This document shows positions 463 through 42,795 of a stretch of DNA of 55,102 nucleotides, in pieces. This DNA is from Thermoplasmata archaeon (GTDB taxonomy: Archaea; Thermoplasmatota; Thermoplasmata; UBA184): assembly GCA_021826525.1 (NCBI GenBank), contig JAKAZU010000004.1:1-55102 (forward strand). The letters are read 5' to 3'. The notes below the pieces were generated by a model. It was not told the origin of the DNA. It saw only the letters and a program-made list of their open reading frames with translations, and did not search any database. Position 1 is the stretch's first letter. Every line of letters starts with the position of its first letter. Made by a program: the position numbers and the translations under genes.

Positions 463-1768
463 CCGCCGGGGTTCCGGCCGGGCTTCGGCGCGCGAGGAGG
501 GGCTCGCTCGTGCGGCCGAGAGGGTAGCGTAACAGCGCGGCGATCCCACCGAATGCCTTGCTCAGCATCTCCCCCTCCTCGCTCTCGGTCGAGATCAGAC
601 GCACGGACCCCCCGGCGGCGGCCACGCGCGAGAACAGCCCTTCCACGTAGTCCTCGCTCGCGGCTTCGTGGACCTGCCGTTGGCCGCAGCTCGGGCACGG
701 GGCCTCGAGGACCGCTTCCACTTCGGAGTCGTTCAGCACGCGTTCGAACGACGCGGAACAGGCCGAGCAGGTGAACGTCACGCGTCGGCGACGAATTCCC
801 TCGCTCACCAGGAGCAGGTCGATCGCGCGCGCCTCGAGCGCGCGCTCCACGTTGGCCGGACCGTAGGCGGCGAGGCCGGTATCGCCCTTGCGGATCTCGG
901 AGAGCAGGCGCTGGATGATTCGCTTCTCTTCGGTGATTTCGAGGCCATGGAGGACGGAGGATGCCTTCTCGACGAGCTCGCGGAGGCCGTAATCGTCCGT
1001 GTAACCGGTGTCGAAGAGCGGCTGAACGACCTTCTGCTGGAGGCGAAAATCGAGGAACCCCTCCTTGTAGAAGTATTCCTTCGTGGCGCCCGGCCCGCCG
1101 AGCAGGATCCCCTTCAGGCTATCGACCTTGGGGAGGAACAGCTCGCCGGCCATCTCGCCGATCTTCACGAAGAACTCGTGGGCGGCGTGCTCGATCATGC
1201 GCTCGAAACGGTGCGCGGACTGACCGCCACGTCCGTGCTTGCTCGGAACAAGGGAGTTGCGGTTCCGCAGCGCCTCCACCCGTTTCCCGCGCAGGAAGCC
1301 GAGGGTCACCTCAGCGCGGTCCATCACGATCAAGCCCCAGAGCTCGGGCTCGTGAGCCATCGAGAGGAGCGGCTCCAGGAAGAACGTGGAATCGCATCGG
1401 TAGAGGTACGTGTTCAGCGGCTCCGGCGGCTCCACGATGAACGTCACCGGCTCCGAACGGTCCGCGCCGACGGCCTTCGAGCCCACGAAGAAGGCCACCC
1501 CGTTCGCCGGCGGCGCCTTGTAGGCCCGCACGCGGCCCATCAGCGATTCGATCGCCCACATCACGTTCTTGCGCGTCGTCCGGCTCTTGATGTTCGAGCT
1601 CTGGGCGTATTCGTTCCGCAGGTATCCGATGACGTCGGCGATCTGCTTACCCGGCGGGACGTAGAGCGAGATCAGCTCCGTCGCGCGGCCCTTGGCCGCG
1701 GAGATCTCATCCAGCTTGCGCTGAAACGAATAGCGCTGGAGTTGCGGGTCGGGGTCGGAAGTGCTCAA
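446..1768 (-). CDS. prf1: Peptide chain release factor aRF1
   Basis: aRF1 recognises all three stop codons in the ribosomal A site and triggers peptidyl-tRNA hydrolysis. All diagnostic motifs are visible: N-I-K-S at residues 59-62 and Y-x-C-x3-F at 123-129 for stop-codon reading, and GGQ at 181-183 in the peptidyl-transferase loop. Near the C terminus two C-x2-C pairs (FTCSAC and CPSC) form the zinc-binding insert of archaeal domain 3. The open frame continues about 108 codons upstream, but that part only mirrors the trxA coding region; a TTG preceded by GGAGGG at 4-nt spacing gives 440 residues, close to the usual archaeal length of about 410-420. It lies 80 nt behind trxA on the same strand and may be co-transcribed. 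Confidence 0.95.
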   Translation of the reverse strand: MSTSDPDPQLQRYSFQRKLDEISAAKGRATELISLYVPPGKQIADVIGYLRNEYAQSSNIKSRTTRKNVMWAIESLMGRVRAYKAPPANGVAFFVGSKAVGADRSEPVTFIVEPPEPLNTYLYRCDSTFFLEPLLSMAHEPELWGLIVMDRAEVTLGFLRGKRVEALRNRNSLVPSKHGRGGQSAHRFERMIEHAAHEFFVKIGEMAGELFLPKVDSLKGILLGGPGATKEYFYKEGFLDFRLQQKVVQPLFDTGYTDDYGLRELVEKASSVLHGLEITEEKRIIQRLLSEIRKGDTGLAAYGPANVERALEARAIDLLLVSEGIRRRRVTFTCSACSASFERVLNDSEVEAVLEAPCPSCGQRQVHEAASEDYVEGLFSRVAAAGGSVRLISTESEEGEMLSKAFGGIAALLRYPLGRTSEPLLARRSPAGTPAATKAD

Positions 1769-1848
1769 TGTCCCTCCGGCGCACGAACCTGGCGAGCGAT
1801 CTCGTTCGGGCCGGGGACGCCCCCGGGTCCGCGCCCTGCGCGGGGGAG

Positions 1849-2166
1849 TCAGAGCAAGCGGCGGATGTGCTCGTCGATGACCTCTTCGGGGTAGGCACCG
1901 ACCATGCGGTCGACGAGCTTTCCTTGCTTGTAGAAGAGGAGCGTCGGGATGCTCATGATGCCGAGCGCGCCCGCCTTGTCTCCGTTGTCGTCGGAGTTCA
2001 TCTTGCCGAACGAAACCTTGCCCTTGTACTTCTCGCTCAATCGGTCGACGACCGGGGAGACCATCCGGCAGGGCCCGCACCACGGGGCCCAAATGTCGAT
2101 TACCGCCGCGCCGTTCCCTTGGGCGAACCCGTCAAAGTGTGCCCCATCGATCTCTTGGACCACCAT
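1849..2166 (-). CDS. trxA: Thioredoxin
   Basis: A small cytosolic dithiol-disulfide oxidoreductase of 105 residues, the usual thioredoxin length. The active site W-C-G-P-C has its cysteines at positions 30 and 33, and the conserved cis-proline is in S-I-P-T (Pro74). The fold is complete, with the final F-Y-K-Q-G-K strand-turn and C-terminal helix. A TATA-like TTTAATAAG sits about 37 nt before the ATG, so the transcript would have a leader of only about ten nucleotides. The release-factor gene follows on the same strand. The partner reductase is not in this window. Confidence 0.95.
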   Translation of the reverse strand: MVVQEIDGAHFDGFAQGNGAAVIDIWAPWCGPCRMVSPVVDRLSEKYKGKVSFGKMNSDDNGDKAGALGIMSIPTLLFYKQGKLVDRMVGAYPEEVIDEHIRRLL

Positions 2167-2198
2167 CGTCGGACTCCGTGGGTAATCGAGAACAGGGG

Positions 2199-2207
2199 CT
2201 TATTAAA
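2199..2207 (-). promoter_or_regulatory. TATA-like element of trxA
   Basis: TTTAATAAG on the minus strand in an otherwise GC-rich intergenic stretch, centred about 37 nt upstream of the trxA ATG, the spacing expected for a near-leaderless archaeal transcript. Confidence 0.5.
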
Positions 2208-2302
2208 CGATTGGCGGAACTCGGCACCACTTCGGAACATGCACCGCCGAGGGTTCGCCCGGGGCATGACAAGCCTTAGTACGGGCAGGCCGTATCCTGG
2301 GC

Positions 2303-3109
2303 ATGGCCGATCCGGCGTCCGCCCGGGTAGACCCGGAGGCCTCGAACCCCCTGACCCGAGGCGCGAACGCGGTCGGACCTCGGAGCAATCGGCTTCCCCC
2401 TGTCCTACGTCCTGCCGCGCTGAAGGCCCTGCGCCAGCGCATGCTCCTCACCCGACAAGCGAGCCTCGATCGCCTGGCCCGTCTAACCGACTGCGACCGG
2501 GATCGGCTGCGGAGCTACCGACGCGAGCTCCAGGCGGACGGGATTGCGGATCAGTTGCTCGCGCGGGGAGCGGGTCTCGCGTTCGTTCGAGAGCTGCCGC
2601 AGGGCCCCCTGTTCTATCTTCTCGTCCGGGCGCTACGACCGGCCCGGGTCGTCGAGACCGGCGTCCGACCGGGGTACTCGACCACCTGGATCCTCGCGGG
2701 AATGGAAGCGAACCACTACGGGGAACTCACTTCCCTCGGCCCCGGCACCCCTGCGGGGAGGGCCGAAGGGGTGGACAACGTCGGGGTCGGCCAGTTCGTA
2801 CCGCCGTCGTTCCGGGGCCGCTGGACCCTGGTGCTCGGGAACACCGAGCAACGCTTCCGGTCGATCCTCGGGAACGCTGCGGGGATCGACCTCTTCTTCT
2901 ACGACAACGGGCCCGACACGACGCGCGCGCGCTTCGAAATCAAGGGCGCGTGGGAGGCGCTGAGCGAGCGGGGAGTGCTCCTCGCCCACCACGTCGATGC
3001 CAATCGCGCGTGGAACGACTTCTGCGCGTTGCAAGGGCTCCCGCCGCAGATTCTCGACCCCGGCCCGCCGGCGCTCGGGGCGCTGTCGATGCGCCGCGAC
3101 TCGGCCTAG
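2303..3109 (+). CDS. Class I SAM-dependent methyltransferase (Methyltransf_24 type)
   Basis: 268 residues. The first ~45 residues are Pro/Arg-rich and probably disordered. From about residue 110 there is a Rossmann SAM-binding core: V-V-E-T-G-V-x-x-G-Y-S-T is motif I, with the acidic GxG-like loop and the S-T-T-W-I helix typical of the Methyltransf_24 group, and D-L-F-F-Y-D-N-G carries the later acidic motif before L-A-H-H-V-D. Enzymes of this family methylate small molecules or sugars; the substrate here cannot be read from the sequence. The ATG used has a weak TATA-like CCTTAGTAC about 28 nt upstream. An internal ATG at 2441 would remove the low-complexity N terminus and is a possible alternative. 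The gene converges on moaB with 9 nt between the stops. Confidence 0.75.
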   Translation: MADPASARVDPEASNPLTRGANAVGPRSNRLPPVLRPAALKALRQRMLLTRQASLDRLARLTDCDRDRLRSYRRELQADGIADQLLARGAGLAFVRELPQGPLFYLLVRALRPARVVETGVRPGYSTTWILAGMEANHYGELTSLGPGTPAGRAEGVDNVGVGQFVPPSFRGRWTLVLGNTEQRFRSILGNAAGIDLFFYDNGPDTTRARFEIKGAWEALSERGVLLAHHVDANRAWNDFCALQGLPPQILDPGPPALGALSMRRDSA

Positions 3110-3118
3110 TGCCTGTCC

Positions 3119-3643
3119 TCAGCGCTCGAGCTCCTCGACGAGGTGTTGGGCCGCCGGAAGGATCAGCCGTTCGGTGGCCGTCCGGACCGCGCGCTCCGAG
3201 CCTGGCAGCGCGAAGACCGGCTTGCCGTGGATGACGTAGAGCGAAGCCCGGCTCATGAGCGCGAGCGCCCCCACCTCCTGGAAGCTCAGATTGCGGTAGA
3301 GCTCGCCGAAGCCTTCGAGCTTCTGGCCGCCCATCGCGTCCAGCGCCGCCACCGTTCGGTCGCGAGAGCTAACCCCGGTTCCACCGATGGTGATCGCCGC
3401 TTCGACCTGAGGGTCGGCGAGCCACGGATCGAGGGCGTCTCGGACATCGGCGACCGAGTTCGCCACGAGCTTGTAGTGGAGAACTTGGTGGCCTCCCCCG
3501 GTGAGGAGGTCGCGCGCGAGATGGCCCGACGGGTCGTCCTCCTCGGTGTGCATGTCGGACACCGACAGGACCCCGAAACGTAGCGATCGGTCTCCGCCAA
3601 GATGGTGCCGCGATCCACCGCTGGGTGCTTCCTGTGGGGTCAT
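3119..3643 (-). CDS. moaB: Molybdenum cofactor biosynthesis protein MoaB (molybdopterin adenylyltransferase family)
   Basis: 174 residues of the MoaB/MogA fold, which binds molybdopterin and adenylylates it before metal insertion. Family motifs are visible in order: F-G-V-L-S-V-S-D near the N terminus, T-I-G-G-T-G-V-S-x-R-D-x-T for the molybdopterin-binding loop, G-F-G-E-L-Y-R-N-L-S-F-Q-E-V-G, and the C-terminal F-A-L-P-G-S loop. The start codon overlaps the moaC stop as ATGA, so the two are translationally coupled and probably transcribed from the rfcS promoter. No MoaA, MoeA or molybdoenzyme is in the window. Confidence 0.93.
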   Translation of the reverse strand: MTPQEAPSGGSRHHLGGDRSLRFGVLSVSDMHTEEDDPSGHLARDLLTGGGHQVLHYKLVANSVADVRDALDPWLADPQVEAAITIGGTGVSSRDRTVAALDAMGGQKLEGFGELYRNLSFQEVGALALMSRASLYVIHGKPVFALPGSERAVRTATERLILPAAQHLVEELER

Positions 3644-4092
3644 GATCCTTCGGACTCTCCTTTCTGCTTCACCGTGACGCGGACCGGCCCGAGAGCCGTC
3701 GCGGGGTAGAGCCCGCGCGCATCCTTCTCCAAGTACTTGACCATGTCCCAGACCGTAAGCAGCGCTACGGTCGCGCCGACGAGGGCCTCCATCTCGACAC
3801 CGGTGGGCCCGACCGACTCTGCCCGAGAGGTCACCTCGACGCCGTCGCGCCGGATCGCGATCGCGATCTCGCTCCCCGTGAGAGGCACGATGTGGGTGTG
3901 AGGGAGGAGTTCGGAGGTGCGCTTCATCGCCAGAAGCCCCGCGACCTCCGCCGTCGGGAGGACCGGGCCCTTCTCGACCCGGCCCGCGCGCAACCTACGC
4001 ACCGTCGAAGGGCGGAGACGGAGGCGGCCCCGCGCGACCGCGCGCCGCAGGACGTGCGGCTTGCCCGAGACTCGACGCTGGCGAGCGACCAT
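3640..4092 (-). CDS. moaC: Cyclic pyranopterin monophosphate synthase MoaC
   Basis: MoaC converts the MoaA product to cyclic pyranopterin monophosphate, the second step of molybdenum cofactor synthesis. Seen: K-G-x-V-L-x-T-A-x-x-A-G, then K-R-T-S-E-L-L-P-H-T-H (the conserved substrate-site histidines), and G-P-T-G-V-E-M-E-A-L-V followed by A-L-L-T-V-W-D-M-V-K, with Asp and Lys of the catalytic helix present. The frame is open further upstream, but that part is a shadow of rfcS. The ATG two bases after the rfcS stop gives 150 residues, the normal size. Some positions, such as P-H-T-H for the bacterial P-L-C-H, follow the archaeal variant. Confidence 0.92.
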   Translation of the reverse strand: MVARQRRVSGKPHVLRRAVARGRLRLRPSTVRRLRAGRVEKGPVLPTAEVAGLLAMKRTSELLPHTHIVPLTGSEIAIAIRRDGVEVTSRAESVGPTGVEMEALVGATVALLTVWDMVKYLEKDARGLYPATALGPVRVTVKQKGESEGS

Positions 4093-40843: not shown

Positions 40844-41092
40844 GGAACGTACCCGTACTGGGACGGTTGCTCCCATTTGAGCCTTCAGTTGGAGTTGGCC
40901 GAGACCAACTCCGCCTCTCCATGGACGCCGGGCGAGCGCACGCGCACAGCACCTAGGGGTTATACTCCGCCAGCGGAAGTCGGCGCGCTGTTCGACGAGT
41001 ACAAATTTTTGTTTGACACGTCAGAGAAACGTTGGGAGAATCCCCACGCACATGGTTTCTCGCTTTTTCTCGCGATGTTTAAGTAGTAGGAA
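40844..41092. other. Longest gene-free region, between the pilin and the RHH gene
   Basis: About 250 bp with no convincing coding region and no tRNA-like structure. It holds an 8-bp perfect inverted repeat (40891-40912), A/T-rich stretches ACAAATTTTTGT (41002-41013) and GTTTAAGTAG (41077-41086), and AGTATAACC on the minus strand near 40958-40966. The last plus-strand stretch is only 12 nt from the RHH ATG, so the RHH start or promoter may differ from the ones given. Confidence 0.5.
40891..40912. repeat. Perfect 8-bp inverted repeat, candidate operator
   Basis: GGAGTTGG, six bases, CCAACTCC. It lies just upstream of the TATA-like element of the pilin and 180 bp before the divergent gene for a double ribbon-helix-helix protein. 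It could be an operator or an RNA hairpin. Confidence 0.4.
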
Positions 41093-41614
41093 ATGGGTCA
41101 TACGGACGTAACCGTGTTCGACAACGTCCCCCGTCGAGAAACCCCGCTCGTTCGCGAGCGGAACGCTCGCCGGACCGACCCCGAGGACGCACGCATCGCC
41201 CTACGGTGCAACCGCAAGGAACTGGAGCTGATCGACTCGTTCGTGGCCAACGGCGAGTTCGAGAGCCGCTCCGAGCTCTTGCGGGCGGCGATGCACGCGC
41301 TGCTCCGGTCGCGCTCGTTGTCGTCCGAGGTCGCGCTCGCCCGAGATTCTGAGGGTTACGTCGAAGTGCCCGTGCGCATGCGACCGCACGAGCTCGCCGA
41401 GTGGCAAGCCTTCGCCCGACTGGTGGAGAACGGACAGCCCGTGCGCGATGTCCTCGCGCGAGCGATCCGAGAGTTGGCGGCCGGCCGCCGCATACGTGAC
41501 ACCGTCGCCTACCACCGCGAAGGGATACAGCAAGCCGCCGCGCGGCAGGAGCAGGAGTCGGCACTTAGTGAAAGCGGAAAGAATCTCGAACGCAAGGGCG
41601 TGCTCGGTCGATAG
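41093..41614 (+). CDS. Ribbon-helix-helix regulator with two RHH-like domains
   Basis: 173 residues, soluble. The first RHH unit covers about 33-72: ribbon A-R-I-A-L-R-C-N, helix K-E-L-E-L-I-D-S-F-V-A-N-G, then S-R-S-E-L-L-R-A-A-M-H-A-L-L. A second similar unit covers about 89-130: Y-V-E-V-P-V-R-M, H-E-L-A-E-W-Q-A-F-A-R-L-V-E-N-G, V-R-D-V-L-A-R-A-I-R-E-L. RHH proteins bind DNA as dimers through paired ribbons, so two in one chain could form a built-in dimer. The last 40 residues are charged and probably flexible. The FtsZ-like gene follows after 37 nt on the same strand. In haloarchaea the RHH protein CdrS controls ftsZ2; this context is similar, the proteins need not be orthologous. Confidence 0.8.
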   Translation: MGHTDVTVFDNVPRRETPLVRERNARRTDPEDARIALRCNRKELELIDSFVANGEFESRSELLRAAMHALLRSRSLSSEVALARDSEGYVEVPVRMRPHELAEWQAFARLVENGQPVRDVLARAIRELAAGRRIRDTVAYHREGIQQAAARQEQESALSESGKNLERKGVLGR

Positions 41615-41651
41615 GGGTTCCCGAGGTTGATCATGGAAGCGGGGTGGATAC

Positions 41652-42539
41652 ATGTCCGGGGCCGATCGAGGTGCGAGCGTAGGTAGTCCGTCGTCGGGAT
41701 CTGACGAGCCGAACGGAGCGGCGATCTCCGGGACCGTGCGCCTGGGCCAGGATATCCGGTTCGTGATGATCGCCGTCGGCGGAGGCGCGATCCGCGTCGC
41801 ACGGCCGATCGCCCGCCGCCACTTGCGCCACTTGGAAACGGTCGCGATCAACTGCGATCCCCGGGTGCAGGACTGCGAGGAGTTCGACCGTCGAATGTGT
41901 CTGATCCCGGAAATGGGGGGACCTGCCGACACCTGCGGAAGTCCGCTGGCCGGAGCCGTCCTCGCGCGCGCGGCCGAACCGGCACTGCGACGCCTGTTCG
42001 ACGAGGCGCACTTCGTTACGATTATCGGTAGCCTCGGCGGGGGCGCCGGTAGCGGAGTGCTACCGAACCTCCTCGAGCTCGCAAGCGAGCGCAGCCGGCA
42101 CGTGACCGCCTTCGTCCTGAAGCCGTTCGCCTGTGAAGGAGAGCGCCGTGCGATCGCGGACCGGACGATCGGCCGCATCCACTTGCTCGAAGGCTTCTCC
42201 GACCTCAAGAACCAAAACCGTGCCGCCCTTCATGTCCTCGATAACCAATCGCTCGTCGGACCGCTGGGCTCTCGAGCGTTCCGGAGCGTCTCCGAACACT
42301 GGGCACAGGTCATCGGCGACTACGTGGAACAGAACTACATCGACGTCGCCGAGGCCTTTCTCCACTCGATGCTCTCTCCCGCCATCCCGGCGACGACGGT
42401 GGTAGTACCCCCGACCTCCATCATCGGTCCCGGGATCGCACCGCCCGCCGAGATGCTGCCCCCGATCCCCGCCCAGCACCTCGAGGCCGAGCTCACGTTC
42501 GAGGTCCACAGCGCGGTTCGGCCGCCCCCGACTCCGTAG
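41652..42539 (+). CDS. FtsZ/tubulin-like GTPase lacking the C-terminal domain
   Basis: 295 residues. After a 33-residue flexible start the GTPase fold is clear: M-I-A-V-G-G-G-A at 39-46 (T1 loop), V-A-I-N-C-D-P at 64-70 (FtsZ A-I-N-T-D), the tubulin signature I-G-S-L-G-G-G-A-G-S-G at 125-135 with Ala in place of Thr, and V-L-K-P-F-A-C-E-G-E-R-R at 155-166 (FtsZ K-P-F-x-x-E-G-R-R). A segment aligning with the T7 loop reads I-D-V-A-E (230-234), so the second catalytic Asp is Glu. After it only a Pro-rich tail of about 55 residues remains instead of the ~110-residue FtsZ C-terminal domain. It is therefore a divergent, shortened family member and not the main cell-division FtsZ. The preceding gene encodes an RHH protein. 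Confidence 0.8.
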   Translation: MSGADRGASVGSPSSGSDEPNGAAISGTVRLGQDIRFVMIAVGGGAIRVARPIARRHLRHLETVAINCDPRVQDCEEFDRRMCLIPEMGGPADTCGSPLAGAVLARAAEPALRRLFDEAHFVTIIGSLGGGAGSGVLPNLLELASERSRHVTAFVLKPFACEGERRAIADRTIGRIHLLEGFSDLKNQNRAALHVLDNQSLVGPLGSRAFRSVSEHWAQVIGDYVEQNYIDVAEAFLHSMLSPAIPATTVVVPPTSIIGPGIAPPAEMLPPIPAQHLEAELTFEVHSAVRPPPTP

Positions 42540-42596
42540 GGAAGCGAAAGCACGCTGGGTCGGCCCGGGATCGGGCCATCCTCGGGACGGGACACA

Positions 42597-42606
42597 ACGT
42601 TAAGTG
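42597..42606 (+). promoter_or_regulatory. TATA-like element of the 54-aa membrane protein
   Basis: ACGTTAAGTG is centred about 29 nt before the ATG at 42631 and supports that start instead of the in-frame GTG at 42604. Confidence 0.4.
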
Positions 42607-42630
42607 GGGGATTCGTTGAATGCGACGCGA

Positions 42631-42795
42631 ATGGACGGCCGCATCCTCACGGCGCTTTTGACGATCCTCCTCCCCGCGGTCCTGATCGGGGTGACGATCG
42701 AGTTCTTCTCGTCAAACCCGCTGGCGATCCTGGGTCTGTTCGTCGTGATCGTCGGCGGAACGTTCTGGCTCTTGTCCTACACCGACTCGTTCTAG
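42631..42795 (+). CDS. 54-aa protein with two membrane helices
   Basis: A small hydrophobic protein: M-D-G-R, a helix of about 20 residues (I-L-T-A-L-L-T-I-L-L-P-A-V-L-I-G-V-T-I), a short polar loop F-F-S-S-N-P, a second helix (L-A-I-L-G-L-F-V-V-I-V-G-G-T-F-W-L-L) and S-Y-T-D-S-F. A hairpin in the membrane is expected. I do not recognise a family. It follows the FtsZ-like gene by 91 nt on the same strand but seems to have its own TATA-like element. It could be a membrane partner of the FtsZ-like protein; that is a guess from position. Confidence 0.6.
   Translation: MDGRILTALLTILLPAVLIGVTIEFFSSNPLAILGLFVVIVGGTFWLLSYTDSF

Follow-up and report, generated by a model that had tools for sequence, protein, structure and literature searches.

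What might a regulator with two RHH domains, a shortened FtsZ-like GTPase and a 54-aa membrane protein, encoded side by side in a Thermoplasmata archaeon, do together? To our knowledge, the control of archaeal cell division is largely open, and CdrS is among the few regulators that we know of. The locus lies in the window (the whole stretch of DNA analysed here, 55,102 nucleotides of contig JAKAZU010000004.1, assembly GCA_021826525.1), where the + strand at 41114-42795 encodes, in this order, a tandem RHH protein, an FtsZ-superfamily GTPase and the 54-aa membrane protein. A divergent type IV pilin gene lies upstream of the trio, and genes for PAC2 (- strand), FEN1 (+ strand) and FtcD (+ strand) follow downstream. 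The features of the locus are as follows.

40990..40996, + strand: O1, GTTCGAC, an upstream copy 21 bp before O2; found at -122 to -125 in 31 of 52 upstream regions
41010..41024, + strand: O2, TGTTTGACACGTCAG, core operator-like site; the sole perfect match in the window
41078..41085, + strand: TATA-like box TTTAAGTA of the putative RHH-GTPase promoter; at -35/-36 in 51 of 52 regions
41114..41614, + strand: tandem RHH protein, CdrS-like, 166 aa (family searches, alignments with partners); first RHH at residues ~27-67, second RHH at ~81-122, conserved C-terminal tail at ~149-166
41116..41122, + strand: O3, GTTCGAC, overlapping the RHH start codon; may reflect a coding constraint instead
41652..42539, + strand: FtsZ-superfamily GTPase, 295 aa (Pfam, NCBIfam, PDB, profile and alignment comparisons); loops T1-T6 at residues ~36-204, variable linker at ~241-276, conserved tail peptide at 280-284, no FtsZ_C
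42600..42605, + strand: TATA-like TTAAGT, 31 nt 5' of the membrane-gene start; such a box is present in 35 of 36 copies
42631..42795, + strand: 54-aa protein with two hydrophobic stretches, a candidate membrane hairpin (36 aligned copies, coding pattern)

Conservation of the locus

An earlier note, made from the sequence alone, had described three consecutive same-strand genes and proposed that they form a module. The trio and its spacing recur in relatives, which argues against a chance arrangement. Within a single genus, 37 genomes keep the gene order, as do 54 named loci (the genomes being partly shared), and almost every gap in this conservation coincides with a contig end. Among the 101 genomes searched, GTPase matches below 1e-40 were found in 37 of the 61 belonging to the genus of the window and in none of the 40 others, where the best match reached 2e-16. 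Strong RHH matches likewise occur in 37 genus genomes; the two sets differ only by G024, which has the GTPase on a contig that begins there, and G038, which has an RHH fragment at a contig edge. Candidatus Lutacidiplasma silvani is one named carrier of the locus.

When the window was compared with 38 fetched loci from 37 genomes, with gene starts chosen by a script, the RHH gene was missing from two and the membrane gene from three, all five being cut by contig ends. The RHH and GTPase genes adjoin wherever both were assembled, with 23-80 nt between them. Of the 54 named loci, 52 contain the RHH gene, the two others beginning at a contig start, and 48 contain the membrane gene; the six without the latter are three contig ends, two loci with only ~700 bp of downstream sequence, and L214. 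In the rearranged locus L037, compared using the 54-aa query without its first residue, a PAC2-FEN1-FtcD-RibD block is inverted on the other side and the trio is still together. Linkage of all three genes is thus conserved across the genus genomes, the named loci and this rearrangement. The co-occurrence search that the earlier note had suggested places the GTPase regularly beside the RHH and membrane genes, and the contrary possibility, that they never adjoin, is clearly not the case.

The GTPase was not found in 24 of the 61 genus genomes. As 23 of these also have no FEN1 match and both contigs of G001 end at the locus, they were not counted as losses, and reading the absence as true loss was set aside as uninformative. 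A search for the PAC2 neighbour in ten of the 24 returned matches of 30-37% only. Some genomes without the locus (e.g. G059, G043, and G031) are rated ~90% complete, yet belong to the 23 without a FEN1 match, and the whole region seems to be missing from these 23 assemblies.

The earlier note had also suggested that the pilin links the locus to surface remodelling. The comparison does not support this part, as many loci, though not all, have a pilin-like gene upstream, and its distance varies. In L214, where the 54-aa gene was not found, inspection by eye showed a long downstream ORF (1403-3811) whose N-terminus is pilin-like.

The FtsZ-like GTPase

Membership of the GTPase in the FtsZ/tubulin superfamily follows from its Pfam Tubulin match (PF00091; 41.9 bits, cut-off 33). 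It is not a canonical FtsZ, scoring 50.3 of the 295.2 bits needed for TIGR00065 (ftsZ), and no FtsZ_C domain (PF12327) was matched in it by Pfam. The best PDB FtsZ chain aligns at E=1e-9 across residues 36-174, while a profile of 72 GTPase rows reaches PDB FtsZ chains at E values down to 3e-16, only up to position ~178. Against canonical FtsZ of the same class, the profile gave 98% probability over 182 columns, with the alignment ending at loop T6. The shortened FtsZ-like core that had been read from the sequence is thereby recovered.

Canonical FtsZ (TIGR00065; PF00091 plus PF12327) and the GTPase have the nucleotide loops T1-T6 in common. Across the 72 rows loops T1, T2, T4, T5, and T6 are almost invariant, and the T4 signature GGGxGxG is present in every row. 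The T7 loop motif of FtsZ is NxDxxD. This motif is not kept in the GTPase, where D231 occurs in 6 of the 72 rows; E234 is invariant at the T7 position, which suggests that some catalytic function of T7 may remain. The GTPase also differs from canonical FtsZ in its missing FtsZ_C, its score far under the ftsZ cut-off and its position in a separate clade. Since the C-terminal domain and an intact T7 motif are missing, the GTPase is unlikely to form FtsZ-type filaments alone, and it probably does not polymerise in the manner of FtsZ.

In FtsZ, a variable linker is followed by a conserved tail that docks on tethers. The GTPase is reminiscent of this layout, with a tail peptide that is almost invariant after its variable linker (E280, L281, and E284 in all 72 rows).

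FtsZl1 resembles the GTPase in its FtsZ-like N-terminal core, in having no recognisable C-terminal FtsZ elements and in a host genome that keeps canonical FtsZ, as far as the accessible part of the source goes (PMC2875224). According to that same part, FtsZl1 combines a coiled coil with a helical C-terminal domain (one example has 1051 aa, against 295 aa here) and has vWA/kinase neighbours (PMC2875224). Unlike FtsZl1, the GTPase is adjoined by the RHH and hairpin genes, and no vWA domain was found in the 10 window proteins scanned around it.

Two trees were used to place the window group, which joins L136/L137 at 83% in the first and L102 at 94/77 in the second. An origin as a decayed FtsZ2 beside its cdrS was considered and is not firm, as the canonical genes group apart in a clade of their own (100/99) and the trees give no clear branching order for the RHH-partnered genes. 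A single loss of the C-terminal domain is not firm either: in the second tree, where branches are long, four changes or more are needed to explain the short forms.

The tandem RHH regulator

The window RHH protein, above all its second RHH, is weak in family searches. Its first RHH is recognised by RHH_1 at E=0.005, below the cut-off, and by NCBIfam CdrS (NF058555) at E=5e-5, where the protein scores 23 of the 100 bits of the equivalog cut-off. The second RHH had no family match; it can be aligned with its counterpart in tandem-RHH partners from other loci. That a single chain carries two RHH domains, as first proposed, is therefore supported by weak CdrS/RHH_1 matches for one and by alignment for the other, and the sub-threshold CdrS match agrees with the proposed CdrS-like character. 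Among ten RHH proteins scanned, five contain two CdrS stretches and the window protein contains one; the partner RHHs match the CdrS model with a best E of 6e-23.

The conserved start is GTG 41114; ATG 41093, which had been assigned as the start, probably lies too far upstream. Rows of the RHH alignment were picked by start sequence, so its invariant MFD is no evidence. The conserved C-terminal tail is a possible contact to the GTPase.

The arrangement recalls cdrS-ftsZ2, in which an RHH gene likewise stands directly before an FtsZ-family gene on the same strand. The CdrS-like RHH and an RHH site near the FtsZ-family promoter (here a putative one) are further common traits. CdrS has 55 aa and one RHH, against two in one chain here, and FtsZ2 is full length with the C-terminal domain that is missing here, according to the accessible portions of two reports (PMC7439475, PMC8406309). 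A membrane-hairpin gene near the locus and the pairing of RHH genes with FtsZ-family genes other than canonical ftsZ also set the present case apart.

Transcription units and the membrane-protein gene

The RHH start GTG 41114 sits 36 nt past the TATA-like TTTAAGTA. A TATA-like box precedes the RHH start in all 35 scored copies and the GTPase in none of 37. Shine-Dalgarno-like words, in turn, were found before the GTPase in 22 of 37 copies, before the RHH gene in 1 of 35 and before the membrane gene in 2 of 36. From these counts and the box before the membrane gene, we infer a two-gene (bicistronic) RHH-GTPase operon and a membrane gene that would be started separately from its own promoter.

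The 54-aa gene begins at ATG 42631 and was aligned in 36 copies, window included; its product matched no family above cut-off. Compared with the 92%-identical copy in L050 there are 4, 1, and 12 differences at codon positions 1, 2, and 3, a pattern by which the ORF behaves as a coding gene. Together with the two hydrophobic stretches, this accords with the tiny two-helix membrane protein described earlier.

Of the 48 named loci with the 54-aa gene, 10 have it more than 290 bp from the GTPase, and in seven named loci 0.65-1.2 kb lie between the two. In L221 and L235, gene-like ORFs on the opposite strand were seen by eye in this interval; those of L235 (3376-4267) resemble a PIN/AbrB-type toxin-antitoxin pair and that of L221 (3902-4447) a NUDIX gene, both again by eye. 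In L214 the 54-aa gene was not found within 2.8 kb downstream. The idea of the three genes as one regulated set is thus upheld as to linkage and weakened as to the 54-aa gene, which probably lies outside the RHH-GTPase operon, considering its own TATA-like box, its distance and its absence from that stretch of L214.

A profile of the 54-aa protein gave no convincing match in the loci of 14 genomes, the genus's own excepted (best E 0.16), and no equivalent was seen in the downstream ORF lists of related operons. The 54-aa gene was seen beside the window-type GTPase subfamily only, whereas RHH and FtsZ-like pairs are far wider in the phylum.

An operator-like site at the RHH promoter

In the window, TGTTCGACACGTCAG lies ~104 bp 5' of the RHH start. 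Of 52 distinct upstream regions, 48 have this sequence or a close form (at least 11 of 15 letters) at -102 to -105, and 50 have GTTYGAC at the O2 place, accompanied in the regions listed above by a second GTTYGAC at the O1 place. The regions were picked via an anchor on encoded FD, so finding O3 in every one carries no independent weight. The exact 13-bp core GTTYGACACGTCA was found once each in 9 of 12 genomes, always ~100 bp before the window-type RHH gene; two further genomes have it at the same place with one mismatch, and G030 has no close match. Elsewhere in the 12 genomes there were 16 other one-mismatch matches, and two matches to the reversed pattern. L213, L235, and L238, the deepest relatives among the loci read, have their GTTCGAC copies at the start codon and 24 bp into the coding sequence instead of upstream. 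The suggestion of a regulated system gains support from a conserved site, operator-like in character, at the RHH promoter, to which the RHH protein may bind.

By its letters, TGTTCGACACGTCAG resembles the palindrome YGTCNGACR. The window site TGTTCGACA differs from this palindrome, so the link between them is one of similarity; the O2 of one species, L188, reads TGTCTGACA and bridges the two forms.

RHH and FtsZ-like pairs across the phylum

A set of 14 related Thermoplasmatota genomes holds 73 Tubulin-domain (FtsZ-family) genes. A tandem-RHH gene lies directly upstream of 25 of these, all non-canonical (23 found by script and two hidden by long open frames, L101, the same gene as L058, and L095). 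None of the 38 canonical-clade genes in these genomes has one, at least one of the 38 being cut upstream, and ten non-canonical genes are also without it. Among the RHH-partnered proteins, eight short ones of 250-299 aa have the Tubulin domain and no FtsZ_C, while two longer ones have both.

A profile of 20 partner RHHs matched in 145 of 147 phylum genomes, where many matches may be other RHH proteins. When one RHH locus per genome was returned, an FtsZ-like ORF came next in 21 of 30. Eight of the nine others belong to family f19 (L255, L258-L263, and L266), and in the four f19 loci read, the tandem-RHH gene stands directly before a pheT-like gene, named by eye. The FtsZ-like partner of the RHH in L102 and L103 (G062:C22 and G064:C13), which belong to a sister family, has apparently lost both the T1 and the T4 glycine motif and looks like a pseudo-GTPase. 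A clade of eight divergent FtsZ-like proteins with no RHH partner (L143, L147-L153) was also seen, in 8 Thermoplasmata genomes.

Related sites at other FtsZ-family promoters

The palindrome is enriched beyond the window-type operon. In 39 other tandem-RHH and FtsZ-like loci, from which exact duplicates had been removed and of which some come from sister species or the same genus, YGTCNGACR is present 46 times, spread over 27 loci, where Markov shuffles predict 2.0 sites; the remaining 12 loci have none. In 12 of the 39, two sites are spaced by 20-22 bp (by 22 in ten of these), where 0.0 were expected. Where no FtsZ-like gene adjoins the RHH gene, the site is present in 4 of 8 cases (4 sites against 0.41 expected), which points to the RHH protein as reader of the site.

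The paired form YGTCNGACR-N13-YGTCNGACR is present in 52 of 62 genus genomes, once in 46, with no control match; six genus genomes contain additional 22-bp pairs. Of 30 pairs checked, 29 lie at a second tandem-RHH gene, which precedes a longer FtsZ-like gene in the loci read (L244, L251, L254, and L096).

One canonical ftsZ clade also bears the site: 6 of its 14 upstream regions have it, with 8 sites where 0.19 were expected, whereas it was found in 0 of 22 upstream regions of other canonical ftsZ genes. The canonical-ftsZ form CGTATGACGCTCGTCTGACA, allowing up to two mismatches, occurs in 48 of 62 genus genomes with no control match; 28 of 30 checked sites lie before ftsZ and two at contig ends.

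One haloarchaeal record, from Natronorubrum bangense, carries CGTCAGACAGTCGTCTGACG ahead of a canonical ftsZ, with the tenth base of the site 57 nt from the ATG. Judging by the neighbouring gene and the N-terminus, we take this ftsZ to be ftsZ1. It is nearer to the site-less canonical clade (L107, L085, and L109; ~54-60%) than to the operator-bearing one (L083, L084, and L089; ~46%), so the genus and haloarchaeal sites precede different paralogues. In Haloferax volcanii, the RHH protein CdrS binds upstream of ftsZ1 in vivo by ChIP-seq, and its motif, at -50 from the TSS, is described as notably symmetric in the accessible part of the report (PMC8406309). The genus sites and the single haloarchaeal record would be compatible with one code, used at different paralogues.

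Possible functions of the locus

We give an even chance to the reading in which the locus is a diverged, duplicated relative of the cdrS-ftsZ2 arrangement, an autoregulated RHH-GTPase operon whose GTPase modulates canonical FtsZ polymers. The RHH protein and the GTPase would form an autoregulated two-gene operon, in which the two RHH domains of one chain probably fold as a built-in dimer. At the promoter, this protein would bind TGTTCGACACGTCAG as well as the copy upstream of it and so set the level of the GTPase. The GTPase, with its FtsZ nucleotide-binding loops, is predicted to bind GTP and would be unlikely to build FtsZ-type filaments alone. Its likeliest role may be to modulate, depending on GTP, the polymers built by the cell's true FtsZ, for example as a capping or titrating subunit, recruited to these putative partners via the conserved tail peptide. 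The 54-aa hairpin is a candidate for a partner at the membrane, suggested solely by where its gene lies. In favour of this reading are the adjacency of the two genes, the distribution of TATA-like boxes and Shine-Dalgarno-like words, the conserved and near-unique O2, the palindromes at related loci and at one canonical ftsZ clade, CdrS binding upstream of ftsZ1 in Haloferax, and the nearly invariant loops in a protein without FtsZ_C. It is weakened by the difference between TGTTCGACA and YGTCNGACR, by the missing core in G030, by the 12 other loci that have no site, by the placement of GTTCGAC in L213, L235, and L238, by the faint family matches of the window RHH, by the differing tree placements, and by the invariant E234.

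The GTPase could instead assemble through a non-FtsZ contact into a polymer of its own, with the hairpin holding its tail peptide at the membrane and the envelope being shaped as a result. The constant nearness of the hairpin gene, the tail peptide placed as in the tether-docking layout of FtsZ and the invariant E234 at the T7 position all favour such a polymer, but the hairpin gene has its own putative promoter and is sometimes distant or not found, FtsZ_C is missing and the contact between GTPase and hairpin is hypothetical; we think it unlikely. Gene order, autoregulation-like sites and the conserved RHH tail would also suit an autoregulating RHH antitoxin whose tail blocks the GTPase, which when free would poison FtsZ. 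Mobile toxin-antitoxin loci do not show the vertical, once-per-genome conservation at one place seen across the genus, and searches of Pfam and NCBIfam gave no toxin family match for the GTPase, making this quite improbable. Least probable of all is a partition-like system (TubZR/ParMR-like), in which an RHH protein, repeats 21-22 bp apart and a cytoskeletal partner in one operon would couple a small centromere to a DNA-moving tubulin-like filament, given only two or three sites per locus and one locus per genome, similar sites before canonical ftsZ and a GTPase without the filament-contact domain.

A wider history can be proposed, which we advance tentatively and consider somewhat doubtful: an old archaeal CdrS-type code would have been duplicated in Thermoplasmatota, with one operon turned into a membrane-associated GTP switch. 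CdrS-type RHHs would read YGTCNGACR at FtsZ-family promoters from haloarchaea to Thermoplasmatota, at sites often paired and spaced by whole helical turns. Duplication of the tandem RHH would have given several separate RHH and FtsZ-like operons with their own site variants, in one of which the GTPase would no longer polymerise like FtsZ and would tune division.

In the literature searched, which covered few subscription journals, there was no report of tandem-RHH and shortened FtsZ-like operons or of this operator. A short site found about once per genome at an FtsZ-family promoter offers a testable handle on division control in lineages without genetics. A GTPase with the nucleotide loops of FtsZ and without its C-terminal domain would, in turn, test what FtsZ does without canonical filaments.
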